Part shown: piece by piece, positions 7,893 to 61,731 of the stretch | Position numbering within the stretch: position 1 is the stretch's first letter | Layout of the letters: each line of letters opens with the position of its first letter | Assembly (NCBI RefSeq): GCF_029784135.1 | Contig: NC_073744.1 | Location: 109,101,766 to 109,165,765 of the forward strand | Direction of reading: 5' to 3' | DNA: 64,000 bases | From: Toxorhynchites rutilus septentrionalis | Taxonomy: Eukaryota; Arthropoda; Insecta; Diptera; Culicidae | Translations under genes and position numbers: made by a program | The notes under the pieces: model-generated | The model's database searches: none | Seen by the model: the letters and a program-made list of their open reading frames with translations, nothing else | What the model was told of the DNA's origin: nothing

Positions 7893-8029
7893 GTGTTTTA
7901 CGGTGGCTGATTTTGCCACCAAAGCAGTATGTATAAACAAACTTTTTCCTTCTTCTACCTGCTGCCGTTTTGCGATTGCGTTTGCCACTCGCTGAAACTA
8001 GTTGTTGCCACCGAACCGAATGTGGTATG

Positions 8030-9026: not shown

Positions 9027-10460
9027 ATGGCTTCCAGTAGCTCCGGGCCTCCTCAAGGCCGGGCTACAAACCTGTACGAAGGGAAACCTACCCAACGTAC
9101 CTCCCCAAAGTGGGCCGACCCACTCAACGGCAATTTGCAGATTCTGCTCCTTCGTGCAACAGGAGAGAACGTGATCCCTTCCAATCCGTTCATAGTTAGT
9201 AAAACTATCTCCAACGTTGCGGGGGATAAATTTAACAGCGCGAGACCACAACGAGACGAAAAAAAGAGGACGCAGTATATTCTTACAACCAAGGACAAGG
9301 ATATTATTGGTAAGCTCCTTTCAATAACTAAATTGATAGATGAAACCCCTGTTGAAGTTATCTTTCACCCAACATTAAATCAACGCAAATGCGTTGTCAC
9401 TTGCCGTGATGTCATTGACATCAAAGAATCCGTACTGGTTACTGAGCTTTCCGATCAAGGTGTGATCGATGTCAAGCGTATTACCAGGAAGGATAACAAC
9501 ATTGTTGTCCCAACGGCAACCTTAATTTTGACCATTCGTGGAACGGTTGTTCCCGATTTCATTTATTTCGGGTTCATCCGAGTCGGGACTAGAAACTTCT
9601 ACCCTAATCCCATGCAGTGCTACAAATGCTATAAATTTGGGCATACGACCAAGCGATGCAAGCGCGAAAATCCGCTTTGCAGAAACTGCGGCCAAGAACA
9701 TCTGGAACAAAAAACAGAAGCAAACATAGTTTGCAATGCTTCAGCTTTTTGTGTCAACTGCCAAGGAAACCACTCCTCTTCCAGTAGGAATTGTCCCGTA
9801 TGGCAAAATGAAAATAAAATTACCAGAATCCGAATCGATAATGGAATTTCACACAAAGAGGCAAAGGAACAGTTTCAACTACAAAACAATGGCTCTTCAT
9901 TCGCAAGTGTTCTGCAAAACAGACTCACCAACTTGCAAAAGCCAGCACCCACATGTAACTGCAAATGTAACTGCGCCTCGGCCGTTTCGGCCACTTCTAG
10001 TCGCGAAAGCACCCCCCCAAATGACACTACATTCGATACAACCATGACAGATTCAACAACTGGTAGTTCATCAACTGAATCCGAAAGCGAATCAGTCATT
10101 TCTATGGATACGTCTGATGTTCCAAACAAAAACAAAAACAAAAGAAAAATAACTAAAGGATCATCCTCAGAGTCAGATCAAAAATCTGAAGATGAGACCC
10201 AAACAAACAAGGACAAGAAAAGAACTAAGAATGAACAAAGACAGACACCAACAACAAATAACAATACAACCCCAACAGAAAACAACAACAACAACAACAC
10301 ATATCAAACAAAAAACAACAATAACAACAACAGAAACGCACATTCAACAAAAAACAACACAAACACAACAAACACTCCAAAGACTTCTACACCAAACAAA
10401 AACAACACCAATACCTCAAAGAAAGCTTCTCTTTCCAAGGGTAAAGGACCATCGAACTAA
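9027..10460 (+). CDS. A1 ORF1: gag-like nucleic-acid-binding protein
   Basis: A 477-residue intact ORF. Family knowledge: ORF1 proteins of I-type elements bind the element RNA and form the RNP. Three zinc knuckles lie at about residues 198-260 (CYKCYKFGHTTKRC, CRNCGQEH, CVNCQGNHSSSSRNC). Upstream is a conserved alpha/beta region (TPVEVIFHPTLNQRKC, IDVKRI). Downstream comes a CxCxC segment (CNCKCNC), an acidic/Ser-rich stretch (SESESESV) and a long Asn/Thr/Lys tail of low complexity. The ATG follows a CAAC-rich leader, and A2 starts at the same MASSSSGPP. Stop TAA is at 10458-10460; ORF2 is in another frame about 36 bp on. Confidence 0.9.
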   Translation: MASSSSGPPQGRATNLYEGKPTQRTSPKWADPLNGNLQILLLRATGENVIPSNPFIVSKTISNVAGDKFNSARPQRDEKKRTQYILTTKDKDIIGKLLSITKLIDETPVEVIFHPTLNQRKCVVTCRDVIDIKESVLVTELSDQGVIDVKRITRKDNNIVVPTATLILTIRGTVVPDFIYFGFIRVGTRNFYPNPMQCYKCYKFGHTTKRCKRENPLCRNCGQEHLEQKTEANIVCNASAFCVNCQGNHSSSSRNCPVWQNENKITRIRIDNGISHKEAKEQFQLQNNGSSFASVLQNRLTNLQKPAPTCNCKCNCASAVSATSSRESTPPNDTTFDTTMTDSTTGSSSTESESESVISMDTSDVPNKNKNKRKITKGSSSESDQKSEDETQTNKDKKRTKNEQRQTPTTNNNTTPTENNNNNNTYQTKNNNNNNRNAHSTKNNTNTTNTPKTSTPNKNNTNTSKKASLSKGKGPSN

Positions 10461-10495
10461 TTCTCTTTGAATAGTTCAAACATACACACAATTAA

Positions 10496-13400
10496 GACTT
10501 AGGAATTAGAGTTAAAAACACCAACACATTCACTCCAACACAGAAATTCGGGATACAATGGAACATCAGAAGTATCCGACGAAATATTCTAGAACTGAAA
10601 ATGCTTATTTCAAACTCTAATCCCACAGTCATAGCCCTTCAAGAAACTATGACTCCAAACAACTTCGATAAACACTTCATCTCAAAATATATCACATACT
10701 TCAAAGAGGGTCCCAACCCCTCAAAAAACGGAGTTGCAATCGCAATCAAAGATGGCACTCCACATGATCTTCTTCCCATTACCACTGATCTTCAGGCAGT
10801 GGTAGTGCGCATTAAACACCCCTTTCCAATCACCGTCGTTAGCATCTACATCACTAATGATTCCGATCCGAACACTCTACGCGGCCAACTGGACCATCTG
10901 TTCGCCCAACTTCCCGCCCCAATCATGCTTATGGGTGATTTCAACGCCCACTCATACGCCTGGGGAGGTGCATACCTCGATCGAAAAGGATCCATCATTG
11001 AGGATTTCATATCCGACCATTCTCTTCTCCTTCTTAACAACGGCCAACACACCAGAATCCATTATTCTGGTACTACTTCAGCCATCGATCTCACTATAGT
11101 ATCAGACAAACTATCTTCAAAACTTTCTTGGAACATCCACGATGATACTTGCGGAAGCGATCATTTTCCAATCTTCACTTCCTTCGGCCAAACTTCTCCA
11201 GAGTTTTCAACAAGGCCAAGATGGAAATTTGAATACGCTGACTGGGCTGGCTATCAGTTTGACATTGAAAACCGCCTCTCCGCTAAACGAGATTGGACAG
11301 CCAAGGAATTCTCCAAAGTTGTCCTAGAAGTTGCAATGGTGCACATCCCCAGAACCAGTGGCATCCCTGGCAGGAAATGTGTCCCATGGTGGTCGCCTGA
11401 GCTGAAGGCAGCGATCAAAGGTCGACGTAAGGCCCTACGCAAATTAAGAAAGGCCCATCCGGACAGCCCACTGAGACCCACTCTGCTTGCAGAGTTCCAA
11501 AGGGCTCGCAAAGAAGCTAAGACTGCTATCAACACAGCCAAGCACAACAGTTGGGTTAAATTCGTCAGCGAAATTAATCCCAACGCGTCAACAAAGGAGT
11601 TATGGAGTAAGATTGGCAGGCTTCATGGAAAGAAAAGAAGCAAAGAATATAATCTTCTAATTAACGGTCAATACACCAATGACCGGAAAATCATCGCCGA
11701 GGCGTTTGGAGATTTCTTTGCTTCCGCCTCCTCCAATCAAAACTACGACCAAACCTTTCTAACCCACAAAACGGAATGCGAAAGAATTCCCATCGATTTT
11801 CATACCGATGTGGAATTTGACTTCAACAAAAACCTCTCCCTCAAAGAGCTCGATTGGGTACTGAACAAAGTCAAACAAGGATCCACAGGACCTGATGACA
11901 TTAGCTACCCTATGCTTAAGAATCTACCCCATCTCGGGAAAAAAGCACTTCTGAAGCTCCTCAACAAAGTCTGGGACAGTGGAACCCTCCCCAGTTGCTG
12001 GAAAGAGGGTCTAATGATCTGTATCCCGAAACCAGACATGAACAACCATCTTCTTGACAATTTCCGCCCCATCACTCTCCTAAGTTGTGTTGGGAAAGTC
12101 TTGGAAAAAATGGTCAATCGACGCTTAACGACTTTTCTAGAGTCAAATAAGCTGATTGATCCCAGACAATTCGCCTTCCGTGCGGGAAAAGGTACAGAAG
12201 ATTGCCTTGTAGCAATCGAAAAAATCCTAGACGACGCAACTGAAAAATTACACCACATTGATATTGTTTCCCTGGATTTATCCAAGGCCTTCGATCGGGC
12301 ATGGAGGTACCCAGTGCTGAAAAGCCTTTTCGACTGGGGGATTCGTGGGAGATTAGGTCTCTTCGTTAAAAGTTTTCTAGAAAACCGGTCTTTCAAAACC
12401 GTTATTAACAACCACCAATCTTCTCTAAAAATCCCAGAAAACGGCTTCCCACAAGGCTCAGCACTTTCACCAACCCTCTTCAACATTGCCATGCAATCTC
12501 TATTCGAGATTATCCCGGACCATATAAAGGTCATAGTCTATGCAGATGACATCACTCTTATCTCTACGAGCTGCTTCGGCTTAATTCAGAGAAAGAGGCT
12601 TCAAAAAACCTTAGACTCCATCCAAAACTGGGCTCTAAAAACAGGTTTTAAAATTTCCCCGGAGAAATCCAAACACATACATATCGGAAAAGCTCTCAGA
12701 AGGAGAACCTATCTTCAGCTCAACAAAATCCCGATCCCTACAATGAGGACATTGAAAATACTAGGGGTTACTTTCGACAAGAAACTCAACTTCCTATCAC
12801 ATTCCCAAAAGACCAAAATAGCCACCAGAAAGAAATTGAACATCATCAAGTCTATCGCAGGCAACCTAGCCTCTGGTCATAGAAAGACGTTGCTAAATGT
12901 TGTAAATGTTTGGTTGGTCCCACAAATCCTTTACGGAATAGGCACCTTCAGCCGTGGAGGGGACAGGGTGTTAAACACCATTCAACCAATTTACAATAAA
13001 GCAATTAGGCTCGCAATTGGCGCTTTTCCCACCAGTCCCACTCTTGCTGTAATGGCAGAAAGTGGGCAACTTCCCTTCACCCACCTGGTAACAAAAGCCA
13101 TCACCAATAAAGCCATCCGTCACTTGTCACTCCCCGAAAGCGACCACAATGTCCCATTAATACATAGAGCCAAAACATGGTTCAAAAATCTCACGAACAA
13201 AGATCTTCCCGATATATGTGAACGTTCATCTGCGACGGGAAGAAATTGGAACGTCAAACCGCCGAACATTAACCTTGAACTTCTCAAGACAGTTCGAGCG
13301 GGAGACCCTTCTCCAAAAGTCAAAGCCTGCTTCAATAACCTCGTTGCATCCAATTTTCAAATCAACCACCAGGTATACACAGATGGTTCAGTCAGTGCCG

Positions 13401-14149
13401 ATGGAGTTGGATGTGGAATCTTTGAGAGTAGATACACTGGTAGCTTTTCTCTTCCACCGCAATGCTCCATCTTCAGTGCGGAAGCTTTCGCCCTTTTAAT
13501 AGCTACCCAAGAATGCACCCATGAGTTTCTTCCTACCACAATATTCTCAGACTCAGCTAGCTGTCTCCACGATCTTCTGAGTGGAAACAGCAAACACCCA
13601 TGGATTAAGCAAACAGAAGAGGCTGCTTCAAATAAAAACATCTCCTTCTGCTGGGTTCCTGGTCACTCAGGAATCCGTGGAAACACAGCCGCCGACATAC
13701 TGGCCGGCAAGGGCAGCAAAATAGATCCCCCAGACATGCCCTGTCCTCCATCTGACATTGTCCGCTGGGTAAAACAGCAAGTCCGTGAAAGCTGGGACAT
13801 AGGCTGGATAAACAGCCGTCCCACTCATCTTCATAAAATTAAAAATTCCACTCTCCCTTGGGATGACCGCCTCAATAGTAGGGAAAGGCAAGTCCTTACC
13901 CGTCTTCGAATTGGGCACACTAACTTCACCCACTCACACTTGTTCTGCAGAGCCGAAAAACCCCAATGTGCTTGCAACGAAGCTCCGGTTTCCGTTAGCC
14001 ATCTTTTACTTGAATGTCAACATACCAAAGATGCTCGAGTCCGACACAACATAGGTCAGAGTCTCCGAGATATCCTCAGTAGAGACGAGACCCAAGAAAC
14101 CAATTTAATTGCGTTTCTGAAAGAAACCGACTTCTTTGGTAAAATCTAA
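10496..14149 (+). CDS. A1 ORF2: endonuclease / reverse transcriptase / RNase H polyprotein
   Basis: Open from 10496 after the stop at 10493; the first ATG is 10601 (1182 residues from there). The endonuclease motif IQWNIRS lies upstream of that Met, so translation must start earlier without an AUG, or the Met form would lack a key strand. Relative to the Met at 10601: APE endonuclease at 1 to about 225 (LQET, GDFNAHSYAWGG, SDHFP); RT at about 450-720 (DLSKAFDRAW, GFPQGSALSPTLF, VYADDITLI); RNase H at about 920-1045 (VYTDGS, SAEAFALL, FSDSAS, VPGHSGIRGN); and a C-terminal Cys/His knuckle (CACNEAPVSVSHLLLEC). All visible catalytic residues are present, so it may be competent. Confidence 0.9.
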   Translation, partial: DLGIRVKNTNTFTPTQKFGIQWNIRSIRRNILELKMLISNSNPTVIALQETMTPNNFDKHFISKYITYFKEGPNPSKNGVAIAIKDGTPHDLLPITTDLQAVVVRIKHPFPITVVSIYITNDSDPNTLRGQLDHLFAQLPAPIMLMGDFNAHSYAWGGAYLDRKGSIIEDFISDHSLLLLNNGQHTRIHYSGTTSAIDLTIVSDKLSSKLSWNIHDDTCGSDHFPIFTSFGQTSPEFSTRPRWKFEYADWAGYQFDIENRLSAKRDWTAKEFSKVVLEVAMVHIPRTSGIPGRKCVPWWSPELKAAIKGRRKALRKLRKAHPDSPLRPTLLAEFQRARKEAKTAINTAKHNSWVKFVSEINPNASTKELWSKIGRLHGKKRSKEYNLLINGQYTNDRKIIAEAFGDFFASASSNQNYDQTFLTHKTECERIPIDFHTDVEFDFNKNLSLKELDWVLNKVKQGSTGPDDISYPMLKNLPHLGKKALLKLLNKVWDSGTLPSCWKEGLMICIPKPDMNNHLLDNFRPITLLSCVGKVLEKMVNRRLTTFLESNKLIDPRQFAFRAGKGTEDCLVAIEKILDDATEKLHHIDIVSLDLSKAFDRAWRYPVLKSLFDWGIRGRLGLFVKSFLENRSFKTVINNHQSSLKIPENGFPQGSALSPTLFNIAMQSLFEIIPDHIKVIVYADDITLISTSCFGLIQRKRLQKTLDSIQNWALKTGFKISPEKSKHIHIGKALRRRTYLQLNKIPIPTMRTLKILGVTFDKKLNFLSHSQKTKIATRKKLNIIKSIAGNLASGHRKTLLNVVNVWLVPQILYGIGTFSRGGDRVLNTIQPIYNKAIRLAIGAFPTSPTLAVMAESGQLPFTHLVTKAITNKAIRHLSLPESDHNVPLIHRAKTWFKNLTNKDLPDICERSSATGRNWNVKPPNINLELLKTVRAGDPSPKVKACFNNLVASNFQINHQVYTDGSVSADGVGCGIFESRYTGSFSLPPQCSIFSAEAFALLIATQECTHEFLPTTIFSDSASCLHDLLSGNSKHPWIKQTEEAASNKNISFCWVPGHSGIRGNTAADILAGKGSKIDPPDMPCPPSDIVRWVKQQVRESWDIGWINSRPTHLHKIKNSTLPWDDRLNSRERQVLTRLRIGHTNFTHSHLFCRAEKPQCACNEAPVSVSHLLLECQHTKDARVRHNIGQSLRDILSRDETQETNLIAFLKETDFFGKI

Positions 14150-14208
14150 ACCGAAATACTAAATACCTTGGAAAGTGCTTATTAAAGTTCGCCACTTCAC
14201 AGTCATGT

Positions 14209-14282
14209 ATGCGTGTTTATGTGTGTATACACATGTATGTACGGGTCGGAAGGAAGGTATTCATACATGTATATACACGCAT
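14209..14282 (+). repeat. 3' UTR hairpin of family A
   Basis: ATGCGTGTTTATGTGTGTA (14209-14227) can pair with TACATGTATATACACGCAT (14264-14282). The same TG/CA-rich inverted repeat recurs in A2 near 37507 and in A3 near 50699, so it belongs to the element. Confidence 0.65.
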
Positions 14283-15480
14283 TCAATAATATTAAATAAC
14301 AAATAATATAATATATACTTTCATACCCACATCTATCTTCCATCCATTACATTATACTTTAATCAACTTCCTATTCCTACAGCCACACTCACCAAGGAGA
14401 ATAAATTCATTAAATAAACCTCTCCATTTTTCAGCTATACTGTATACCATTAAATTCAAAACCACTATATTTTATTATCTATTCAAACTGTATTTCATTT
14501 CATTTCACCCCACCCCACACCCACTCCTCCCCTCTTTCCTTCCCATACCACTCCCACCCCCTCCCACTCCACTAATCCCACCCAAATCCTTTCCACTCCT
14601 CTCCTTCCTATCCTCCTGAGAGGGGCCGTTTTGTTTTTTGGCTTTGGAACACGCCTTTCGCTAGGTCACTTGTGCTTCGTTACTGCTTTGGTCCTCGGAT
14701 CAGTAAATTTTTACTTTTCTTTACAGCATATATTAAATATCTTATGAAGCATAGGATCCCTTCCTACCTTCTTCTTTAACCGAGAGTCGAGCGGACAGGT
14801 CTGATGAGTGATTTTGTTGGTTTCCCTTTCGCCAGTCCCCTCTGGACTGGTTTTATTGTGGCTCTTCACTGGGCTGGAGGCGAATGAACTGCAAAGTTTA
14901 AAGCCTCTTAAAAACAAAGAAACGTGAAACGAAAAAAATATATCATACTGATTTTAACCTCCGACCGAGAAGGTCGCTTTTTTTTTAGCAGCTCGGAGTT
15001 TTGGCGTTTCTGGACAGCGGACTGGGACGTCCCCCCTGGCGATTTTAGAAGGAGATTTGTTGCAAATATTTGAACGTGACAGCAGAAGGAGAGCGGGAAA
15101 AGGCAATAGCTCGTTTCGACCGTGGAGAGCGGGCGCTTACCGGCAAACCGGAAAAGCGCGCGCTTTTTACGGCGTCACTGACGCCACGCCCCCTTTTTTT
15201 CGGGGAGTGTTGTCAATTTCATTGTAGGGGCAGTAGTGTAGTGAATCTTATTATTAAATAAAACCTAAAAAGAAGTGAAAAGTGAAGTGACTGAAGCAAT
15301 TATTGCCTTAAGTGTGATTTGCAATTTTCCGCACCCATTGGTGGCTTTTCAAAGTGCTTTATTAGAACAAAGTGTAATTTTCTGGGAAAATACCCCTTAG
15401 TGAAAATCACACAAATCCTCCAATAAGTGATTTTACATTCGTACCTGCTGACTATAACCTAGGTATAGTCAAGCAGAAGC

Positions 15481-25413: not shown

Positions 25414-26183
25414 CTGGTTTTGTTCCGTTTTTTTTCCACATCGAATCAGACTGTGTTTTTTTTCATCGGTTGGGCTTGCGAGTAGAGCGAAGCTCAAAGT
25501 GGTGCGCGACCGAGACGCAGAGGATACAATTCAGACAGATTTATCACACACGCCACACAGCAGCGGCAAGTATAAGTTTATTTTTCTTTTGTCCTCCTAT
25601 CATTCCTTCTACCATCTGTGCTCGATTTACACCATTGTTCATCTGTGTGTTTACCAAATCGGCAAACGTTGGCATTAGGGGTGTCTATTTTTTCTTGGTT
25701 ACATTACCGTTGAAATTTTATTGGAACTTTTTTGACGTAGGACTACGTTTAACCGGAAGATATAGGGGGTGAAATGGAAATCTAGGCACTGAACAAGTAG
25801 GAAAAAATGCAAGATTTGGAACGCTTATAACTCGAGCATTTCTCAATAGATCGCAAAAGTTTTTGCATCAATTGATAGGAAATATATCTACGCATCTATC
25901 ATGACGAATAACATTTCATTTTTCTTGAGATAAATAATTGAATAATTGTGAAATATCAAGCATTGTCAAAATGCACTATGTGCCCATTTTTGATTGGTCC
26001 ATTTTGTGCTCCTCAAATCGTACCGACCAAAACGGGCAACCAGAGCAGCAGCGAAATAGAATGAAGCACGATTGGAAAGGAAAAAGAAAAAAATGAACGA
26101 AACATTGGTCGCAGTCTCACACATGCGTAATTCTCGAGCCAGCCAGTAAGCTTAAAAATCCCCGCTCCGCTGCCGTAACGATC

Positions 26184-26391
26184 TTTCTTTGTGTGGACAC
26201 CGACTGGACAACATCGTTGCTGGACGAGCTGGACGGCGAGGGATCGAGTGCCTTTCTCAAGGCAAGAGGGCGGAGGTGGTAGCGCTGGAGTAGAGTAATA
26301 GAGTAGAGTAGAGTTTTCAAAGGGCCATTCTCAAGGCTAGAGACGAATGAACTGCAAAAGTTTAAAGTCTCTATAATTCAAGACCTTCCTT
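26184..26391 (+). mobile_element. Short non-LTR-derived retroposon (SINE-like)
   Basis: Flanked by an exact 11-bp duplication CCGTAACGATC (26173-26183 and 26392-26402); copy D has a single uninterrupted site at about 60097. The 3' part (CTAGAGACGAATGAACTG...GTCTCT) resembles the terminal stem of family A. No tRNA-type A/B boxes were found at its 5' end. A relative is at 1751. Confidence 0.75.
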
Positions 26392-26470
26392 CCGTAACGA
26401 TCATTCTCATTCAAACTGTACACCACATCGGTTCGCATCACAACACATCAACAAACCAACCCAAGCAGCC

Positions 26471-26700
26471 ATGTCTGGACATGGCAAAGGAGGAAAAGTG
26501 AAGGGAAAGGCAAAATCCCGCTCGAACCGTATTGGTCTGGAGTTCCCCGCAAGGGTAGCTAGGCCGAGCGCGTTAGTACCAGTGCACCAGTCCACCTAGC
26601 CGGCGTTATATAGTTTCGGCCGCCGAAGTGATCGAGTTGGCTGGCAAAGCTGCTCGCGACGATAAGAAAACCCGCATTCGGAACAGAACACATTCGGTTC
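26471..26700 (+). pseudogene. Histone H2A pseudogene (first H2A of copy Z)
   Basis: The ATG is intact: [20 protein letters not shown] follows H2A residues 1-20 closely, then GLEFP. A deletion of about 23 bp removes the codons for the following residues, after which the frame stops. Further on, LELAGKAARDDKKTR-type sequence is readable in another frame (about 26624-26690), so H2A residues to about 75 can be traced. The remaining C-terminal region is not H2A. Upstream (26410-26470) the block CATCGGTTCGCATCACAACAC is shared by the other copies and is probably the H2A leader. Confidence 0.85.
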
Positions 26701-26905
26701 GGTGGACATCAAGACAACAGGCTGTTGCAGCGAGTGGCGAGTGGCAAACGCAATCGCAAAACGGCATCAGGTAGCAGAGGAAAAAAGTATACAAACTGCT
26801 TTGGTGGCAAATCCAGAACAAAGCGGCATCGAGGGCGTTCGAAATGTTTTTTTTTCAAAACCACGAGTACTAAGTTTTCTAAATTGGAACCATTCCATAA
26901 AACAA

Positions 26906-26921
26906 GGCGCTTTTCAGGGCC
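26906..26921 (+). other. Histone-type 3' stem-loop (first H2A)
   Basis: GGCGCTTTTCAGGGCC followed by ATTAAACC. It matches the histone mRNA hairpin apart from one stem pair. Confidence 0.65.
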
Positions 26922-27139
26922 ATTAAACCTTCCAAAAAAGAGTTTAGGAAATACAGTTCAATGCTTTCTAAAACATTATCCAAAATAATAATAAAACACA
27001 AATTGATTTTTTCATAATTTGTTTGCCAGGATCTGATGAGTATGTGAATTTGGCAGTTGTTCTGAGCTTATTGATAGTTGGGGACTTTCCTGATTATTCA
27101 ATTTTCACCAATTCTTAAATTGTTTCCAGATTTCCAGTA

Positions 27140-27359
27140 CAGTAATTTACAATTAGTTCGACATTTAGCTAATTGGACGGACATGTAATGCGACTTATTT
27201 AGTTGGACATTTTTGTAAACAAAGAGATCCAAATTATGACCCCACATTGAAAGTCGACACTGTACCACTGTCATCGCAAATGTTCAATTACAGGTTAAAA
27301 TCGCCTCCAATGCGACACTGATTGGCGCTTCGGCACGTCGCATTGAATGTAATTTACTG
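27140..27359 (+). mobile_element. Pogo-like MITE
   Basis: 220 bp, beginning CAGTAATTTACA and ending TGTAATTTACTG, which are inverted repeats of each other, flanked by TA on both sides (27138-27139 and 27360-27361). The CAGT end and TA target are typical of pogo-type elements. It is present at the same place in each HistE copy, so it was there before the copies spread. Confidence 0.75.
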
Positions 27360-27510
27360 TACAACATGTCACAAAGCTGGATGGGAAGAAATTTTCCAAC
27401 TGTGAAAGCTGTGGCGAGTGGCAACAAATCGCTAAACAGGAAGGTTTAGCCGAACAAGATGGGGATATCGACGGAAAACAAAACAATAAACTCTTTAGAT
27501 TGAATTTTGT

Positions 27511-27526
27511 GATCCTGAAAAGGACC
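27511..27526 (-). other. H2B-type 3' stem-loop left by a deleted H2B
   Basis: The minus strand reads GGTCCTTTTCAGGATC. In copies X and C the same hairpin follows an H2B pseudogene; here the next bases jump straight to the H2B promoter side (GCATGTGAATCCAACGAGCG). Confidence 0.65.
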
Positions 27527-27686
27527 CTTTTTAGCCTGCATGTGAATCCAACGAGCGAACAAATCGTAATGAATGTATTTTTTTACCATCGCTCCCTTTT
27601 AACGCTCATTCGTTCGTCTCGTTGGACTCGCCCCTCTGGCTGAGTCTGCCGATTTGTCTCTATCCTGTGAGTGTGTACCGCTAGAG

Positions 27687-28040
27687 TATAAAACACGCGG
27701 ACCCCAAAAAAATATCTTATTTTCTTTCAAACCGTAAACCCGTGTGGTTGTACGGCATCGGCATCGTGGACGTAACAAAGGAGGACAAGTTAAGGGAAAG
27801 GCAAAGTCCCACTCGAATCGTGCAGGTGTGCAGTTCCCCGTAGGTGTATCCGCCAATTGCTCCGCAAGGGTAACTAGGCCGAACGGATTGGTGCCGGAGC
27901 ACCAATATACCTAACAGCGATTATAGAGTTTCGGCCGTCGGAGTGCTCGAGTTGGCTTGCAAAGCTGCTCACGACAATCAGGAAACCCGCATCAAGAACA
28001 GAGCAGCTTCGGTTCGGCGCTCATCAAGGCAACAATTAGT
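27687..28040 (+). pseudogene. Histone H2A pseudogene with promoter (second H2A of copy Z)
   Basis: TATAAAA at 27687-27693 precedes the coding-like part, which begins near 27753. The ATG is mutated, and in broken frames GLQFPV, RQLLRKGN, ERIGAGAPIYLTAIIEF and LELACKAAHDNQ can be read. These follow H2A residues about 22-75. From about 28000 H2A similarity ends. H2B and this H2A would face away from one another across a shared promoter, the arrangement known for insect H2A-H2B pairs. Confidence 0.78.
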
Positions 28041-28231
28041 TTCAGTGAGTGGCAAAGTGTTTCTCCGGCACGTCGCATTCAATGTAATTTACTGAACAAC
28101 ATGTTCAAGCTGGATGGGAAGAAATTTTCCAACTGTGAGAGCTGTGGCGAGTGGCAAACGCAATAGCTAAACAGGAAGGTTTAACCGAACAAGATGGGAA
28201 TATCGAGTGATAACAAAAACACAACACCAAA

Positions 28232-28247
28232 GGTTCTTCTCAGAACC
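28232..28247 (+). other. Histone-type 3' stem-loop near the HistE right end
   Basis: GGTTCTTCTCAGAACC, a perfect 6-bp stem with a histone-like loop, preceded by ACAACACCAAA. Confidence 0.7.
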
Positions 28248-28571
28248 ATCAACATATTCATAAAGAGTAAACAGTAAACTAATCCATTTTTCAGGTAGAC
28301 AGGTAGGTATTCACGTAGGAGAAGAAAATAAAACAATATATTTAAAATATATATTTAACAAAAGCTGTCCCCATTGTATAGTCCTACGTCAGTACGGTTA
28401 TGTCCCCGACATTACCCACCCGTCTTTTTTTTCATTTTAGAATTTTATATAAATAAAATAAATTAATATAAATATTATCCGCAGCATAACCTTATAATAT
28501 TTTTTTTTACTTATTCATTTTGATAATTATTATATTCTGTTCATATTGAACAGTTGGCCGATTTTTCTAAT

Positions 28572-36900: not shown

Positions 36901-38245
36901 AATAGCTACCCAAGAATGCACCCATGATTTTCTTCCTACCACAATATTCTCCGACTCAGCTATCTGTCTCCACGATCTTCTGAGTGGAAACAGCAAACAC
37001 CCATGGATTAAGCAAACGGAAGAGGCTGCTTCAGACATGCCCTGTCCTCCATCTGACATTGTCCGCTGGGTAAAACAACAAGTCCGTGAAAGCTGGGACT
37101 TAGGTTGGATAAACAGCCGTCCCACTCATCTTCATAAAATTAAAAATTCCACTCTCCCTTGGGAGGACCGCCTCAATAGTAGGGAAAGGCAAGTCCTTAC
37201 CCGTCTTCGAATTGGGCACACTAACTTCACCCACTCACACTTGTTCTACAAAGCCGAGAAACCCCAATGTTCTTGCAACGAAGCTCCGGTTTCCGTTAGC
37301 CATCTTCTACTTGAATGTCAACATACCAAAGATGCTCGAGTCCGACACAACATAGGTCAGAGTCTCCGAGATATCCTCAGTAGAGACGAGACCCATGAAA
37401 CCAATTTAATTGCGTTTCTGAAAGAAACCGACTTCTTTGGTAAAATCTAAATCGAAATACTAAATACCTTGGAAATTGCTTATTAAGGTTCGCCACTTCA
37501 CAGTCATGTATGCTTGTTTATGTGTGTATACACATGTATGTACGGGTCGGAAGGAAGGAAATCATACATGTGTATACACACATTTAATAATAATAAATAA
37601 CAAATAATATAATATAATATATACTCACATACTTACATCTATCTTCTATCCATTACATTATACTTTAATCAACTTCCTATTCCTACAGCCACATTCTCCA
37701 AGGAGGATAAATTCATTAAATAAACCTCTCCATTTTTCAGCTCTACTATATACCATTAAATTCAAAACCACTATATTTTATTCAAACTATATTTCATTTC
37801 ATTTCACCTCACCCCACACTCCACTCCTCCCCTCTTTCCTTCCGATACCACTCCCACCCCCTTCCACTCCTCTTATCCCACCCAAATCCTTTCCACTCCT
37901 TTCCTTCCTATCCTCCTGAGAAGGGCCTTTTTGTTTTTTTTTGTTTTCGGAGCACGCCTTTCGCTTGAGATCTGGGTCACTTGTGCTTCGTTACCGCTTT
38001 GGTCCTCGGATCATTAAATATTTACTTCCCTTTACAGCTTATATTAAATATCTTATGAAGCATAGGATCCCTTCCTACCTCCTTCTTTAACCGAAAGTCG
38101 AGCGGACAGATTTAATGAGTGATTTTTTTTTGGTTTCCCTTTCGCCAGTCCCCTCTGGGCTGGTTTTATTGTGGCTCTTCACTGAGCTAGAGGCGAATGA
38201 ACTTCAAAGTTTAAAGCCTCTTAAAAACAAAGAAAGAAGAAGAAG
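33918..38245 (+). pseudogene. A2 ORF1 tail, ORF2 and 3' UTR (third segment, ORF2 inactivated)
   Basis: ORF1 ends at 34044-34046. ORF2 (about 34140-37450) is collinear with A1 but damaged: an 8-bp loss near 34627 shifts the frame in the endonuclease; about 170 bp is missing at 34779; single-base losses occur near 35630 and 36281; 12 bp is missing at 36182; and about 96 bp at 37035 removes the RNase H VPGHSG block. RT motifs VYADDITLT and GFPQGSALSPTLF remain. The 3' UTR (37451-38240) is as in A1, with its C-rich tract, hairpin and terminal stem. Most losses are small and specific to this copy. Confidence 0.88.
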
Positions 38246-38310
38246 AAAAATATATTCATTACGATTTTTTCGCTCGTTGGATTCACATGCAGTTGTTTCT
38301 AACAAACACG

Positions 38311-38659
38311 AAGGCACCGAAGACTAGTGGAAAAGACGCCGAAAAGTTCGGCACGGCTTCTTCTTGTCGGAAACCGACAAGAGGAAGAAGAAGGAATCAT
38401 ATGCTATCTACATCAAAAGGTGCTGAATCAGGATCATTCCGACACCGGTTTCTCATCGAAGGCGATGAGCGTCATGAGCTTCGTCAATGCATCTTTGAGC
38501 GTATCGTAGCGGAAGCCTCGCGTCTGACCCACTACAATCAGCGGTCAACCATTACGGCGTGGAAAATTCAGATCCCAATCAGTCTGTTGCTGCCCGGTGA
38601 ACTTGCATGCGCTTTCCGAAAGTACCAAAGCGGTGAAGAAATATACCAGCTCCAAATAA
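38311..38659 (+). pseudogene. Histone H2B pseudogene (HistE copy X)
   Basis: Starts [11 protein letters not shown] with the ATG changed to AAG at 38311. In alternating frames it reads [53 protein letters not shown] and finally [11 protein letters not shown] followed by TAA at 38657-38659, which is the H2B C-terminus. The length (349 bp) is close to the 370 bp of a normal H2B gene. Several indels and missense changes rule out function. The 5' side (38254-38310) is the H2B half of the divergent H2A-H2B promoter, cut by the A1/A2 insertion. Confidence 0.9.
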
Positions 38660-38701
38660 AGAACGTTTTCTGACTGCTGATTCGGAAGCAAACCCTAAAA
38701 A

Positions 38702-38718
38702 GGATCCTTTTCAGGACC
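38702..38718 (+). other. Histone-type 3' stem-loop of H2B
   Basis: GGATCCTTTTCAGGACC lies 43 bp after the H2B stop, with one extra base in the stem, followed by ACAAAATCA. Confidence 0.7.
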
Positions 38719-38879
38719 ACAAAATCATCTTTAATCTAAAGAGTTTATTGTTTTGTTATCACTCGATATCCCCATCTTGTTCAGCTAAACCTTCCTGTTT
38801 AGCGATTGCGTTTGCCACTCGGATTCAAAGTTGGACAATTTCTCCCCATCCAGCTTGGAACATGTTGTACTGCAAACTA

Positions 38880-39112
38880 CATTTAATGCGACATGCCGAA
38901 GCACAACTCAGTGTCGCATTGGAGGCGATTTTAACCTGTAATTGAACATTTGCGATGACAGTGGTACAGCTTTCACAGTTGGAAAATTTCTTTCCATCCA
39001 GCTTGGGACATGTTGAGTCATAATTTAGACCCCGAACAAAAATGTCCAACTAAATATGTCGCATTACAGTTCCGTCCAATTAGCTAAATGTCGAACTAAA
39101 TGTAAATTACTG
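38880..39112 (-). mobile_element. Pogo-like MITE in copy X
   Basis: Reverse orientation, ending TGTAAATTACTG then TA. It includes a short duplicated piece (TTTCACAGTTGGAAAATTTC at about 38973) not present in copy Z. Confidence 0.65.
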
Positions 39113-39196
39113 TACTTTCAATCTGGAAGCAATTTAAGAATTGGTGAAAATTGAATAATCCCCAACCATCAATAAGCTCAGAACAACTGCCAAATT

Positions 39197-39692
39197 GGGG
39201 GGTCTTCGTAGCCACTTGGTTACGCGTTCGCTTACTAAGCGATCGATCGTGAGTTCAAACTCAGGGCCCTCAATTGACCATCTTTGTGTTGTTATAGAAT
39301 AATTACGTCCACGCAACCATCATCAGCTATGGAGATCGATCCACGGTGGAACAAAAGATCGATGCATCCATACAACTGCTCTGCTCTGCAAGAAACATCG
39401 GGCTGCTGTTCTATAAATAACCCAACAATGATCAATATCAACTGTCTCCGCTGTCCGGTCTGCTGAACAATGAAAGAACAGATAGAATACCCTTACGCCG
39501 AAATGGCTACTAGAGTGTAATTTACCATAATGTAATGGAACAGAAAACCTAACGCCTAAATGGCTACTACTTCTACTGTGTAACTTACAATTTATAGAAA
39601 CATAAACATATGTACATGTACACGATAAAAACCCGGCTCTGTTACAGATAAAATGCTAATGAGCCTGATAAATAAATAAATGGGATAAAAAA
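39197..39692 (+). mobile_element. tRNA-related SINE
   Basis: The 496-bp insertion is flanked by an exact 12-bp duplication AACTGCCAAATT (39185-39196 and 39693-39704). The first 85 bp resemble a Pol III promoter: an A-box-like TAGCCACTTGG at about 39210 and a B-box-like GAGTTCAAACTC at about 39251. The body contains two CTAAATGGCTACTA-type repeats and ends TAAATAAATAAATGGG. It was copied passively into the tandem duplication at 40515-41010. Confidence 0.78.
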
Positions 39693-39799
39693 AACTGCCA
39701 AATTTTCATACTCATCATATCCTGGCAAATTATTGTTTTGGATAATATTTTAGGATGCATCGAACTGTATTTCGTAAACTCTTTTTTTAAAGGTTTAAT

Positions 39800-39815
39800 G
39801 GCCCTGAAAAGCGCC
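39800..39815 (-). other. Histone-type 3' stem-loop (first H2A, copy X); repeated at 41118-41133
   Basis: The minus strand reads GGCGCTTTTCAGGGCC. The second instance comes from the tandem duplication. Confidence 0.65.
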
Positions 39816-40059
39816 TTGTTTTATGGAATGGTTCCAATTTAGAAAACTTTGTACTCGTGGTTTTGAAAAAAACTATTTCGAACGCCCTCGATGCCGCCTT
39901 GTTCTGAATTTGCCACCAAAGCAGTTTGTATAAAGAACAAACTATTTTCTTCTGCTACCTGCTGCCGTTTTGCGATTGCGTTTGCCACTCGCCACTCGCT
40001 GAAACTGCCTGTTGTTGTCTTGATGTCCACCGAACCGAATGTGGTCTGTTCTGAATGCG

Positions 40060-40262
40060 GGTTTTCTTATCGTCGCGAGCAGCTTTGCCAGCCAACTCGA
40101 TCACTTCGGCGGCCGAAACTATATAACGCCGGCTAGGTGGACCGGTGCACTGGTACTAACGCGCTCCCCCTAGCTACCCTTGCGGAGCAATTGGCAGACC
40201 AACACGGTTCGAGCGGAATTTTGCCTTTCCCTTCACTTTTCCTTCTTGCCATGTCCAGACAT
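40060..40262 (-). pseudogene. Histone H2A pseudogene (first H2A of copy X)
   Basis: The ATG at 40262 gives MSGHGKKEK, an H2A start with a small deletion, then KAKFRSNRVGL. Indels break the frame before LLRKG, and VIELAGKAARDDKKT-like sequence is readable at the far end. The upstream block (40263-40340) carries the conserved leader. The duplicated copy at 41349 has lost this coding part entirely. Confidence 0.82.
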
Positions 40263-41904
40263 GGCTGCTTGTGTTGGTTTGTTGATGTGATGTGACGCGA
40301 AACGATGTGGTGTACGGTTTGGATGAGAATGATCGTTACGGCAGCAGAGCGGGGATTTTTAGGCTGACTGGTTGGCTCGAGAATTACCCATGTGTGAGAC
40401 TGCGACCAATGTTTCGTTCATATTTTTTCTTTTTCCTTTCCAATCGTGCTTCATTGTATGTCGCTGCTGCTATGGTTGCCCGTTTTGGTCGGTACGATTT
40501 GAGGAGCAAAAAATGGGGGATCTTCGTAGCCACTTGGTTACGCGTTCGCTTACTAAGCGATCGATCGTGAGTTCAAACTCAGGGCCCTCAATTGACCATC
40601 TTTGTGTTGTTATAGAATAATTACGTCCACGCAACCATCATCAGCTATGGAGATCGATCCACGGTGGAACAAAAGATCGATGCATCCATACAACTGCTCT
40701 GCTCTGCAAGAAACATCGGGCTGCTGTTCTATAAATAACCCAACAATGATCAATATCAACTGTCTCCGCTGTCCGGTCTGCTGAACAATGAAAGAACAGA
40801 TAGAATACCCTTACGCCGAAATGGCTACTAGAGTGTAATTTACCATAATGTAATGGAACAGAAAACCTAACGCCTAAATGGCTACTACTTCTACTGTGTA
40901 ACTTACAATTTATAGAAACATAAACATATGTACATGTACACGATAAAAACCCGGCTCTGTTACAGATAAAATGCTAATGAGCCTGATAAATAAATAAATG
41001 GGATAAAAAAAACTGCCAAATTCTCATACTCATCATATCCTGGCAAATTATTGTTTTGGATAATATTTTAGGATGCATCGAACTGTATTTCGTAAACTCT
41101 TTTTTTAAAGGTTTAATGGCCCTGAAAAGCGCCTTGTTTTATGGAATGGTTCCAATTTAGAAAACTTTGTACTCGTGGTTTTGAAAAAAACTATTTCGAA
41201 CGCCCTCGATGCCGCCTTGTTCTGAATTTGCCACCAAAGCAGTTTGTATAAAGAACAAACTATTTTCTTCTGCTACCTGCTGCCGTTTTGCGATTGCGTT
41301 TGCCACTCGCCACTCGCTGAAACTGCCTGTTGTTGTCTTGATGTCCACTTTCCCTTCACTTTTCCTTCTTGCCATGTCCAGACATGGCTGCTTGTGTTGG
41401 TTTGTTGATGTGATGTGACGCGAAACGATGTGGTGTACGGTTTGGATGAGAATGATCGTTACGGCAGCAGAGCGGGGATTTTTAGGCTGACTGGTTGGCT
41501 CGAGAATTACCCATGTGTGAGACTGCGACCAATGTTTCGTTCATATTTTTTCTTTTTCCTTTCCAATCGTGCTTCATTGTATGTCGCTGCTGCTATGGTT
41601 GCCCGTTTTGGTCGGTACGATTTGAGGAGCAAAAAATGGACCAATCAAAAATGGGCACATAGTGCATTTTGACAATGCTTGATATTTCACAATTATTCAA
41701 TTATTTATCTCAAGAAAAATGAAATGTTATTCGTTATGATAGATGCGTAGATATATTTCCTATCAATTGATGCAAAAACCTTTGCGATCTATTGAGAAAT
41801 GCTCGAGTTATAAGCGTTCCAAATCTTGCATTTTTTCCTACTTGTTCAGTGCCTAGATTTTCATTTCACCTCCTATATCTTCCGGTTAGACGTAGTCCTA
41901 CGTC

Positions 41905-46962: not shown

Positions 46963-47059
46963 TTCTCTTTGAATAGTTCAAACATACACACAATCAAGAC
47001 TTAGGAATTAGAGTTAAAAACACCAACACATTCACTCCAATACAGAAATTCGGGATACA

Positions 47060-57347: not shown

Positions 57348-58118
57348 TTATGTGGCTGATAATTGCAATAGTTTGAATGATTCCTATAACCTAATAAAAA
57401 AAACAAAAAAAAAATAAAATAATAAAACTACTTGCTAACGCACACCAGTGCGATGATTGCGGTAACGGCTGCTGCTCGATCGGATGATTGCAGACGCCGC
57501 TGCGATTGTGCACTTTTCAGTCCGGTGCTCGTTCTCACGTTCTCACTCACAGCGATTCACACGAGATGCACCAGTACAATTGAACTTAGCGATCGGCTGA
57601 TCGCGTGTTGGGCGCTCGGCACAAATGAAATGGTGTATCACACTTCTAAGCGCGTTCTTCCACACTGATATTGTGTGCGTGCGACTGACCACCGTGTCCG
57701 ACTCCAATTTGCGATGGCGATGAATTGGCGAGAAATGAAAGCCAGCCACTTTGGAGGGCCTTGTTGCGGCTTCTCCACTCGCTGATTGCGAGGTTGAACA
57801 CAATGTCCACAAGACCACGGTAAACGCGTGATAATAAAAACACCAGGGCGAGTAAGGTTAATAACAGCTTACGGCACTCGATCACGATTACGGGAACGCA
57901 AAAGTAAACGACTGATTGCTTGCGCTGTCCAGACTTGAATGAAAAATCAATTTGTGTTTTATTATTATTTTGGAAATTATTTTAGAATGCATTGAACTGT
58001 ATTTCGTAAACTCTTTTTTGAAAGGTTTAAAGGCCCTGAAAAGCGCCGTGGTTTATGGTGGCTGCTTTTGCCACCAAAGCAGTCTGTATAAACAAACACG
58101 GCACGGCGCAGATGAATA

Positions 58119-58401
58119 TTTCGGAAACCGACAAGAAGAAGGAGAAGGAATCATATGCTATCTACATCATAAGGTGCTGAATCAGGATCATTCCGACACC
58201 GGTTTCTCATCAAAGGCGATGAGCGTCAATGCATCTTTGAGCGTATCGTAGCGGAAGCTCCGCGTCTGATCCACTACAATCAGCGGTCAACCATTACGGC
58301 GTGGGAAATTCAGATCGCAATCAGTCTGTTGCTGCCCGGTGAACTTGCATGCGGTTTCCGAAGGTACCAAAGCGGTGACGAAGTATACCTGCTCCAAGTA
58401 A
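58119..58401 (+). pseudogene. Histone H2B pseudogene (HistE copy C)
   Basis: The N-terminus and promoter are deleted. From [11 protein letters not shown] onward it reads, in alternating frames, [42 protein letters not shown] and [17 protein letters not shown] ending TAA at 58399-58401. Relative to X it lacks 3-8 bp around the SVMSFVN segment. A histone stem-loop (GGTTCTTTTCAGGACC) follows at 58445-58460. Confidence 0.9.
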
Positions 58402-58444
58402 AGAGCGTTTTCCGACTGCTGATCCGGAAGCAAACCCTAAAAAG

Positions 58445-58460
58445 GGTTCTTTTCAGGACC
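58445..58460 (+). other. Histone-type 3' stem-loop of H2B (copy C)
   Basis: GGTTCTTTTCAGGACC with one G-T pair in the stem, 44 bp after the H2B stop, then ACAAAATCA as in copy X. Confidence 0.72.
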
Positions 58461-58617
58461 ACAAAATCATCTTTAATCTAAAGAGTTTATTGTTTTGTTA
58501 TCACTCGATATCCCCATCTTGTTCGACTAAACCTTCCTGTTTAGCGATTGCGTTTGCCACTCGCCACAGCTTTCACAGTTAGAAAATTTCTTCCCATCCA
58601 GATTGTGACATGTTGTA

Positions 58618-58843
58618 CAGTAAATTACACTTAATGCGACATGCCGAAGCACCACTCAGTGTCGCATTGGAGGCGATTTTAACCTGTAATTGAGCATCTG
58701 CGATGACAGTGGTACAATGTCGACTTTCAATGTGGGGTCATAATTTGGACCCCGATTTCTATGTTTACAAAAATGTCTAACCAAATATGTTGCATTACAT
58801 GTCCGTCCAATTAGCTAAATGTCGAAATAAATGTAAATTACTG
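58618..58843 (-). mobile_element. Pogo-like MITE (first of copy C)
   Basis: CAGTAAATTACACTTAATGC to AATGTAAATTACTG, flanked by TA; 226 bp. Confidence 0.72.
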
Positions 58844-59299
58844 TACTTTCAATCTGGAGGCAATTTAAGAATTGGTGAAAATTGAATAATTGAGAAAGTC
58901 CACAACCATCAATAAGCTCAGAACAACTGACAAATTTACATACTCATCATATCCTGACAAACAAATTATGAAAAAATCAATTTGTGTTTTATTATTATTT
59001 TGGATATTATTTTAGAATGCATGTTATACAACTGTATTTCGTAAACTCTTTTTTGAAAGGTTTAATGGCCCTGATAAGCGCCGTGTTTTATGGAATGGTT
59101 CCAATTTAGAAAACTTAGTACTCCTGGTTTTGAAAAAAAACCATTTCGAACGCCCTCGATGCCGCCTTGTTCTGGATTTGCCACCAAAGCAGTTTGTATA
59201 AAGAACAAACTTTTTTTTCTGCTACATGCTGCCGTTCTGCGATTGCGTTTGCCACTCGCCACTCGCTGCAACTGCCTGTTGTTGTCTTGGTGTCCACGG

Positions 59300-59382
59300 A
59301 ACCGATTGTGGTCTGTTCTGAATGCGGGTTTTCTTATCGTCGCGATCCTCCTTTACTCCTTTGCCATGTCCAGACATGGCTG
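59300..59382 (-). pseudogene. Histone H2A remnant (HistE copy C)
   Basis: Only the H2A start (MSGHGK on the minus strand near 59375) and a few later codons survive around an internal deletion. A stem-loop relic (GGCGCTTATCAGGGCC) is at 59067-59082. Confidence 0.6.
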
Positions 59383-59457
59383 CTTGTGTTGGTTTGTTGA
59401 TGTGATGTGATGCGAAACGATGTGGTGTATGGTTTGGATGAGAATGATCATTACGGC

Positions 59458-59558
59458 TTTTTTTTTCACTTAAATTCTTTTTGTTTCCTAATTTGGTTTA
59501 CATTATAATATAATACTACATTTCAAGTGATCAACCTAGGGTTCTACATCTTTAAGTT
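59458..59558 (-). mobile_element. Small 5'-truncated retroposon
   Basis: A 101-bp insertion in the H2A leader, with a T-run at its left (poly(A) on the minus strand) and a 12-bp duplication GATCATTACGGC / GATCGTTACGGC at 59446-59457 and 59559-59570. Source family unknown. Confidence 0.65.
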
Positions 59559-60173
59559 GATCGTTACGGCAGCGGAGCGGGGATTTTTAAGCTGACTGGC
59601 TGACTCGAGAATTACGCATGTGTGAGACTGCGACCAATGTTCCGTTCATTTTTTTTACGTAGGACTACGTCTAACCGGAAGATATAGGGGGTGAAATGGA
59701 AATCTAGGCACTGAACAAATAGGAAAAAATGCAAGATTTGGAACGCTTATAACTCGAGCATTTCTCAATAGATCGCAAAGGTTTTTGCATCAATTGATAG
59801 GAAATATATCTACGCATCTATCATAACGAATAACATTTCATTTTTCTTGAGATAAATAATTGAATAATTGTGAAATATCAAGCATTGTCCAAATACACTA
59901 TGTGCCCATTTTTGATTGGTCCATTTTGTGCTCCTCAAATCGTACCGACCAAAACGGGCAACCAGAGCAGCAGCGAAATAGAATGAAGCACGATTGGAAA
60001 GGAAAAAGAAAAAAATGAGGGAAACATTGGTCGCAGTCTCACACATGCGTAATTCTCGAGCCAGCCAGTCAGCTTAAAAATCCCCTCTCCGCTGCCGTAA
60101 CGATCATTCTCATCCGAACCGTACACCACATCGTTTCGCATCACCTCACATCAACAAACCAACACAAGCAGCC

Positions 60174-60395
60174 ATGGTTGGATATGGCAAAGGAGGAAAA
60201 GAGAAGGGAAAGGCAAAATCTCGCTCGAACCGTGGTGGTCTGCAATTTCCCGTAGGTGTATCCGCCAATTGCACCGGAAAAGGTAGCTAGGTCGAGCGCG
60301 TTAGTACCTGTGTACCAGTCCACCTAGCCGGCGTTATATAGTTTCGGCCGCCGGAGTGATCGAGTTAGCTGGCAAAGCTGCTCGCGACGATAAGA
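60174..60395 (+). pseudogene. Histone H2A pseudogene (HistE copy D)
   Basis: The ATG at 60174 reads [20 protein letters not shown] then [10 protein letters not shown], matching H2A residues 1 to about 28. A one-base shift changes the RIHRLLRKGN region, and a stop follows (TAG at about 60286). In another frame VIELAGKAARDDKKT shows that H2A residues 60-75 remain. This is the best-preserved H2A start in the window. Confidence 0.87.
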
Positions 60396-60638
60396 AAACC
60401 TGCGTTCGGAACATAACACATTCGGTTCGGCGGACATCAAGACAACAGGCAGTTGCAGCGAATGGCGAGTGGCAAACGCAATCGCAAAACGGCATCAGGT
60501 AGCAGAAGAAACAAGTTTGTTTATACAAACTGCTTTGGTGGCAAATCCAGAACAAGGCGGCATCGAGGGCGTTCGAAATGGTTTTTTTCAAAACCACGAG
60601 TACTAAGTTTTCTAAATTGGAACCATTCCATAAAACAA

Positions 60639-60654
60639 GGCGCTTTTCAGGGCC
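60639..60654 (+). other. Histone-type 3' stem-loop (H2A, copy D)
   Basis: GGCGCTTTTCAGGGCC then ATTAAACC, identical to copy Z. Confidence 0.65.
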
Positions 60655-60872
60655 ATTAAACCTTCCACAAAAGAGTTTAGGAAATAAAGTTCAATGCTTT
60701 CTAAAACATTATCCAAAATAATAATAAAACACAAATTGATGTTTTCATAATTTGTTTGCCAGGATTTGATGAGTATGTGAATTTGGCAGTTGTTCTGAGC
60801 TTATTGATAGTTGGGGACTTTCCTGATTATTCAATTTTCACCAATTCTTAAATTGTTTCCAGATTGAAAGTA

Positions 60873-61093
60873 CAGTAATCTACAATTAGTTCGACATTTA
60901 GCTAATTGGACGGACATGTAATGTGACTTATTTAATTGGACATTCTTGTAAACATAGAGATCCAAATTATGATCCCACATTGAAAGTCGACACTGTACCA
61001 CTGTCATCGCAAATGTTCAATTACAGGTTAAAATTACCTCCAATCCGGCACTGAGTGGTGGTAATGCGACGTGCCATTGAATGTAATTTACTG
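60873..61093 (+). mobile_element. Pogo-like MITE in copy D
   Basis: CAGTAATCTACAATTAG to GAATGTAATTTACTG, flanked by TA; 221 bp. Confidence 0.72.
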
Positions 61094-61229
61094 TAAAATA
61101 TGTCACAAGCTGGATGGGAAGAAATTTTCCAACTGTGAAAGCTGTGGCGAGTGACAACAAATCGCTAAACAGGAAGGTTTAGCCGAACAAGATGGGAATA
61201 TCGAGTGATAACAAAAACACAACACCAAA

Positions 61230-61245
61230 GGTTCTTTTCAGAACC
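61230..61245 (+). other. Histone-type 3' stem-loop near the right end of copy D
   Basis: GGTTCTTTTCAGAACC: a perfect 6-bp stem and TTTC loop, fully matching the histone consensus. Confidence 0.75.
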
Positions 61246-61422
61246 ATTAACATATTCATAAAGAGTAAACAGTAAACTAATCCATTTTTCAGGTAGATAG
61301 GTAGGTATTCACGTAGGTGAAGAAAATAAAACAATATATTTAAAATATATATTTAACAAAAGCTGTCCCCTTTGCATAGTCCTACGTCACTCCGGTTATG
61401 TCCCCGACATTACCCACCCGTC

Positions 61423-61731
61423 TTTTCTTTTTCCTTTCCAATCGTGTTTCATTGTATTTCGCTGCTGCTCTGGTTGCCCGTCTTGGTCGGCACGATTTGA
61501 GGAGCACAAAATGGACCAATCAAGAATGGGCACATAGTGTATTTGGACAATGCTTGATATTTCACAATTATTCAATTGTTTATCTCAAGAAAAATGAAAT
61601 GTTATTCGTTATGATAGATGCGTAGATATATTTCCTATCAATTGATGCAAACACCTTTGCGATCTATTGAGAAATGCCCGAGTTATAAGCGTTCCAAATC
61701 TTGCATTTTTTCCTATTTGTTCAGTGCCTAG
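61423..61731 (-). mobile_element. HistE copy C, rest of the left arm
   Basis: Continues the left arm after D (CTTTTTCCTTTCCAATCG to CAGTGCCTAG) and is cut about 45 bp before the HistE left end by the BEL/Pao LTR. Confidence 0.8.

Follow-up and report, generated by a model that had tools for sequence, protein, structure and literature searches.

How does a remnant of a histone gene come to lie, with sharp ends, inside another copy of the very repeat to which it belongs? The question is raised by a window of 64,000 nucleotides from Toxorhynchites rutilus septentrionalis (C1:109101766-109165765 of a 902.6-Mb assembly with three large contigs, C1, C2 and C3), in which a stretch that we call element D carries part of an H2A gene and interrupts an inverted copy, C, of the same repeat. 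Either D is a histone array that decayed in place or it moved as a discrete element, which was the view of the initial annotation. The members of the family in the window are as follows (all feature positions are those of the window).

59656..61422, plus strand: element D, a single-unit copy inside copy C (from self-comparison, copies elsewhere in the genome and empty sites).
61423..61731, minus strand: copy C, the part beyond D, which is its 5' side without its first ~48 bp (self-comparison).
57939..59655, minus strand: copy C, 3' side, decayed and without its right end (self-comparison).
25734..28424, plus strand: copy X, complete, with H2A remnants at 26471-26678 and 27768-28002 and a stem-loop at 28227-28271.
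38201..41904, minus strand: copy Z and joined remnants, with a left end at 41904, an H2A remnant at 39964-40262 and a broken H2B at 38317-38656, without a right end.
6891..8497, minus strand: copy Y, with a right end at 6891 and an H2A remnant at 8067-8249, interrupted at its spacer by a retrotransposon from 8498.

The nested insertion of D in C is real. As first annotated, the insertion is precise: the flanks at 59655 and 61423 rejoin as the inverted copy C, and in the self-comparison of the window they match the same repeat over 98 bp at 94.9% on the left and over 309 bp at 97.4% on the right. The further claim, that deleting D restores the left arm of C at a T-run, is borne out by uninterrupted paralogous copies that display the empty site, except that four T are left in excess of the two window copies that read T7 there (five if the first T of D is counted as flank). 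The TTTT at 61423-61426 is likely the 3' T run of D itself. The two copies of this site in Z read CATAT6, and a six-unit copy (L021, C1:84.1 Mb) occupies the same site in another family member. D was also said to begin and end exactly as X and Z do. Its right end, GACATTACCCACCCGTC (61406-61422), is indeed identical to that of X (28408-28424), but D starts with T, whereas X, Z and 30 two-ended genome copies start with G, and Z (left end 41904) has no right end in the window. Exact right-end motifs occur in the window at 28408 and 61406 only, with a one-mismatch end at 6891, and the complete copies are X and D alone, C lacking both its right end and its first ~48 bp.

The termini of the element are GACGTAGGACTACGTC on the left, which is the 5' terminus in 30/30 two-ended genome loci, and CCCGTCTTTT on the right. 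Three features were marked near them in D.

59656..59671, plus strand: 5' palindrome TACGTAGGACTACGTC (GACGTAG-GA-CTACGTC in other copies), by sequence.
61377..61388, plus strand: 3' subterminal inverted copy of the 5' motif (TAGTCCTACGTC), by sequence.
61398..61410, plus strand: 3' hairpin ATGTC-CCC-GACAT, 12 nt from the right end, by sequence and by the fold of the equivalent end of X.

The ends are asymmetric, as had been described, in that the 5' motif is found again, in inverted orientation, 34 bp in from the right end (38 bp counting the TTTT). When the ends of X were folded as DNA, both of the short terminal hairpins were no more stable than shuffled sequences (z of -0.83 and -0.20), so that the marking of the hairpin depends on sequence and not on stability.

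How widely are these ends distributed? With up to 2 mismatches permitted, the left end (23 bases) occurs 16,534 times genome-wide (8079+8455) and the right end (21 bases) 9,691 times (4764+4927); since the reversed patterns of both ends gave 0 matches in 902.6 Mb, these matches are not due to chance. The element itself is present on C1, C2 and C3, with at least 106 DNA matches to D when the best 35 of 4173 first-look candidates were scored. In the first 18.3 Mb of C1, a left end on the same strand lies within 15 kb of 79 of the 95 listed exact right ends (the right end at 16454875 is partnerless, and one left end is shared by two right ends), and the end-to-end length among the listed pairs has a median of 2461 bp, with many near 2.45 kb. 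A 297-bp H2A stretch of X gave 1826 first-look candidates, the best 40 of which, when scored, lie on C1, C2 and C3 at 98-100% identity. One copy on C3 (L009) is given as 100% identical to D, the cores being 99.6% alike, and near-identical copies on different contigs are read as the product of recent spread. Two complete array elements (L016 and L017, C3:87.68-87.69 Mb) stand in the same orientation with 384 bp between them, and at C3:278.46 Mb a diverged (77.6%) left end (L066, 3080-3351) has an intact H3 gene ~1.2 kb away.

Thirty-four loci, chosen by their similarity to D, were fetched with their flanks; 30 are two-ended and four (L039-L042) have the right end only. Among 32 distinct left flanks (the 30 loci, D and X), T stands at -4, -2 and -1 in every one, and position -3 is T in 27, A in 4 and G in 1; the right flank is TTTT in 36/36. 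Joining the two flanks into a query yielded a junction-spanning paralog for 11/32 among the sequences fetched. Five of these are clean empty sites (D, which was compared with the two T7 copies, L012, L017, L033 and L038), each filled site having four more T. L021 and L034 have 6-8 extra T relative to the empty copy, not 4, and in L011, L018, L024 and L026 the junction itself differs from the empty copy and is unreadable.

The gain of exactly four T at the five clean sites, together with the inverted motifs at both ends, is what would be expected of a DNA transposon or MITE that moves by cut-and-paste and duplicates a 4-bp TTTT target. If so, a non-T base at -3 ought to reappear on the right, yet in 5/5 loci of that kind the right flank is TTTT nonetheless; at L038 the empty site TATT/CCCC has become TATT/element/TTTTCCCC. 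The right TTTT thus behaves as part of the element, a target-site duplication is absent at the paralogous empty sites, and with inverted motifs that are asymmetric as well we consider a cut-and-paste origin unlikely. It is harder still to credit that native histone arrays decayed and were scattered by segmental duplication, their common ends being coincident breakpoints: intact native histone arrays are indeed present in the genome and some copies are close neighbours (L016 and L017, above), but identical ends recur in 30 two-ended loci whose flanks are different and always T-runs, and the empty sites contradict such a history. That the family began as retroposed histone copies (processed pseudogenes) and became SINE-like is equally remote, for all that the passenger is one small gene and insertion is beside homopolymer runs, given an element that reaches from ~500 bp before the H2A start to ~150 bp past the 3' stem-loop match with fixed ends, that has tandem units, related copies with H2B in the opposite orientation and no long duplications. 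The ends might have differed between copies, or the copies might all have been local segmental duplications without empty sites. What was found is shared ends at dispersed loci and independent empty sites, and the reading of D as a non-autonomous mobile element with histone-derived cargo, which moved as a discrete element and did not decay in place, has survived.

To which class does the element belong? Canonical Helitron1 elements have 5'-TC and CTRR-3' ends and insert between A and T. The ends here are GAC...GTC(TTTT), and the insertion sites fall between T and T or between T and C. Helentrons and Helitron2 elements are described as having palindromic subTIRs, a 3' palindrome and insertion at TT or after TTTT without a target-site duplication, the Ts being counted in the element, and published spacings of the 3' subterminal inverted copy are 20-30 or 38-60 bp (PMC4067079, PMC3627910). 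The present family has the 5'-terminal palindromic inverted-repeat motif; the same motif inverted, upstream of the hairpin and 34 bp from the 3' terminus (38 with the TTTT); a short palindrome near the 3' terminus, recognized by sequence; and T-rich sites with variable numbers of T and no target-site duplication. From these terminal features we regard D as very probably a non-autonomous transposon with Helentron/Helitron2 terminal structure and a T-run target, likely moved by rolling-circle copying with RepHel supplied in trans. The structural marks of a Helentron/Helitron2 HINE that were looked for are thus present and, as far as the published account of it goes, Helentron-Cq-32A of Culex already carries histone fragments (PMC4067079), so the earlier remark that no described family fits is not supported.

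The cargo was annotated as multi-histone, which overstates what D holds, namely one H2A remnant and histone stem-loops.

60174..60400, plus strand: H2A remnant in D, with the start codon kept, the frame broken and a stop at residue 39.
61225..61269, plus strand: histone 3' stem-loop in D (RF00032, 39.5 bits).
58094..58398, plus strand: broken H2B, either inside the decayed part of copy C or next to it.

Broken H2B occurs in other copies in the window only (38317-38656 and 58094-58398), and tblastn with Drosophila histones (the H2A and H2B sequences were checked) found H2A as the only histone in X, in L009, the twin of D, and in L014. When 20 right ends were sampled, about every fifth of 100 listed, sequence of the H2A-bearing unit lay within 700 bp of 17, and the other 3 have only the last 211 bp in common; similarity to H2A coding sequence was found in 10/20. 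Copy Y resembles these three, its H2A sitting further upstream. Nine ungapped H2A copies were compared, a tenth (L052) being gapped and left out of the stop count: a stop at residue 32 is found in 9/9 and one at residue 39 in 8/9. A functional histone cargo was considered and rejected, as in four array elements none of the ATG-to-stop frames of at least 70 aa is a complete H2A and the stops are common to copies; the H2A cargo is, by its reading frames, dead.

From where was the cargo taken? The nine ungapped copies are on average 97.5% alike and 70.6-72.9% identical to a native H2A (L077), from which they differ at 32-33/59 third positions, 11-14 first positions and 4-6 second positions. This excess of silent change suggests that the source H2A lineage was already separate from the C2 clusters. 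The H2B in the window (38228-38662) is 79.5% identical to the H2B of the cluster at C3:233.6 Mb over 464 nt, versus about 65% for one copy on C113 and two on C2, which makes capture from a C3-like histone cluster likely, not proven. The comparison with the C3 cluster as direct parent is confined to H2B, no H2A being present in the stretch fetched (L079).

The histone stem-loop begins ~195 bp from the right end and scores above the Rfam cut-off in 14/20 of the sampled right ends. Selection on it was considered and rejected: it varies by 9.7% per site, versus 6.1% in the rest of the last 211 bp, in an alignment that kept L051, L056 and L059 despite their poor alignment there. The last 60 bp vary by 0.5%, a figure lowered by sampling on an exact match to the last 17+4 bp. 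Variation across the 20 sampled right ends gave no evidence that the element makes use of the stem-loop. Histone matches whose profile limits are alike (21 or 22 to 109) are dispersed at C3:267432340, C2:136786053, C2:25643612 and elsewhere. Matches with limits of 21-109 were rejected as members of this family, the one that was read (L078) being an H3 pseudogene without a match to the element. That pseudogene adjoins a GAGTACAAAAGTACC-type repeated motif, and another histone-bearing repeat may exist.

D has a single copy of a unit that is arrayed in many of its relatives.

60188..61216, plus strand: unit repeated 1-6 times in other loci, with a period of ~1318 bp and a ~290-bp spacer.

Among 31 complete array-type loci (the 30 fetched and D), 3 have one unit, 10 have two, 7 three, 4 four, 6 five and 1 six. 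First units are on average 98.7% alike across loci and 95.7-95.9% alike to later units, those of their own locus included; middle and last units are near-uniform (99.4-99.8%). Because first units match across loci and later units are uniform, a founder array probably spread, its unit number then changing among the later units. H2A had likely died before the duplication inside the element, since the stop at residue 39 is also in the H2A type of D. Inside the region of Z, a repeat with tRNA-like, promoter-looking boxes, in which ARAGORN found no tRNA, is present at 39198-39690 and 40516-41007; its copies are 1318 bp apart, the period of the arrays, perhaps by coincidence.

A second mobile element enters the picture at the histone spacer.

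8498..14945, plus strand: non-LTR retrotransposon with endonuclease, RT and RNase H domains, lying within Y's histone spacer.
27561..27583, plus strand: uninterrupted target site of the retrotransposon in the spacer of X.

The retrotransposon is found at one position of the H2A-H2B spacer in 8 loci: at 8498 and ~38240 in the window, in L063, in L039-L042 and in a native cluster on C3 (C3:233598760, L079), where it adjoins, on the upstream side, an intact H2B. These form a biased sample, examined for holding histone sequence or the Helentron-type element. The second window copy spans ~34082-38240, and that of L063 spans 1730-8160. The 5' junction follows AGCGATGGC, with an A-run and then TATCA, TACATCA or TACATCACA, at 8498 in the window and in L063, L039, L041 and L042; in L040 the retrotransposon starts at a matching position (X 1836 vs 1828). 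In L063 the 3' junction precedes a TTACGATTTGTTCGCTCG-type sequence, as it does in slightly altered form at 38216 in the window and in the native C3 cluster. The two junctions of L063 overlap by 23 bp of X (1828-1850), likely a target-site duplication, and L039 has a 5'-truncated tail fragment (between 2853 and 3081) at the same place (X 1840-1849). Identity to the window copy ranges widely, from about 74-82% in L039, L041 and L042 to 98.4% in L040, so the inserted retrotransposons are not one insertion that was carried along by transposition.

Exact 5' ends of the retrotransposon number 302 genome-wide. In the first 18.3 Mb of C1 two are listed, one in L063 and the other at 1428419, which falls between listed ends of the Helentron-type element at 1422684 and 1429643. 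The 100 5' ends listed are all on C1, being the first places in the genome, and some three quarters of them lie in C1:94-110 Mb, the 15-Mb stretch that holds the window. At 14946 in the window a second retrotransposon copy starts head-to-tail right after the 3' tail of the first, as if the target had been reused; a spacer-type junction was not seen for the copy at 46977-51328. The shared position suggests that the retrotransposon may be histone-site-specific and that the Helentron may have scattered its landing sites. On balance we lean towards a coupling of two mobile elements through a histone gene, in which a non-LTR element would be specific for the spacer just upstream of H2B and the Helentron would have spread the captured spacer to thousands of places. 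A limited literature search surfaced no paper on a histone-specific non-LTR element.

Which enzyme could have moved the family? RepHel had at least 132 matches when 150 of 1313 candidates were scored, with open frames of up to 1674 aa, and the enzyme probably comes from one of these RepHel families of this genome. No RepHel element bearing the ends of this family was found in the stretches read, and two candidates for an autonomous partner were rejected. The only left end with a different continuation genome-wide (C2:155240776) is near none of the listed RepHel matches, and L063, whose paired ends lie further apart (8.9 kb) than any others listed, proved to be a copy of the X type enlarged by the ~6.3-kb non-LTR insertion. 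As to history, an ancestral Helentron would have taken up an H2A/H2B segment, its source a relative of the histone cluster at C3:233.6 Mb; the H2A would then have died, and internal duplication would have followed. The array-bearing and two-H2A forms would next have spread as passengers, likely by rolling-circle copying with RepHel supplied in trans by another element, and slippage or unequal exchange among later units would have altered their number.

What does this mean beyond the window? It appears that a rolling-circle-type element has multiplied a captured histone segment, with internal arrays that vary in length, far beyond the eight copies of the Culex case. For annotation there is a warning, as dispersed H2A matches of this Helentron-type family are transposon cargo and not orphan histone genes. 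Of these results, the coupling with a retrotransposon that may be histone-specific most deserves further work: if true, it would have turned the target of a histone-locus parasite into genome-wide landing pads. A pertinent question then is whether dispersal of its target by another transposon can free a site-specific retrotransposon from the gene cluster in which it lives.

Among known systems, canonical Helitron1 elements share with D a presumed rolling-circle class and a 3' hairpin, but D has neither their 5'-TC/CTRR-3' ends nor their insertion between A and T. Helitron2 elements are described with asymmetric terminal inverted repeats and hairpins at both the 5' and 3' ends, and members in Chlamydomonas insert just after TTTT without a target-site duplication, all as here; unlike them D encodes no RepHel, and some Chlamydomonas families have longer target-site duplications (PMC3627910). 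Cg_HINE of the Pacific oyster, a group of non-autonomous Helentrons, is likewise reported to spread internal tandem arrays through its genome, those being satellite-like repeats in contrast to the 1.3-kb unit with an H2A remnant, in 1-6 copies, of the present family (PMC7492417). The closest parallel is with Helentron-Cq-32A and HINE-Cq-32A of Culex quinquefasciatus, likened to D here from their published description and not from sequence, with no common descent implied: palindromic subTIRs, a 3' stem-loop, a T-rich target, no target-site duplication and broken histone fragments are common to both, and tandem repeats are found in HINE-Cq-32A, the non-autonomous partner (PMC4067079). The Culex element is described as carrying H4- and H15-superfamily fragments, both broken, in eight copies, whereas here the cargo is H2A, with H2B in some window copies, and there are ~10,000-16,500 ends (PMC4067079). 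By title and the start of the abstract, no further report of histone capture by a Helentron was found in the open-access literature beyond Culex. Histone capture by a Helentron is thus already in print (PMC4067079), and, measured against that published description, the novelty here lies in which histones are carried (H2A, and H2B in relatives), in the scale and in the 1.3-kb units.
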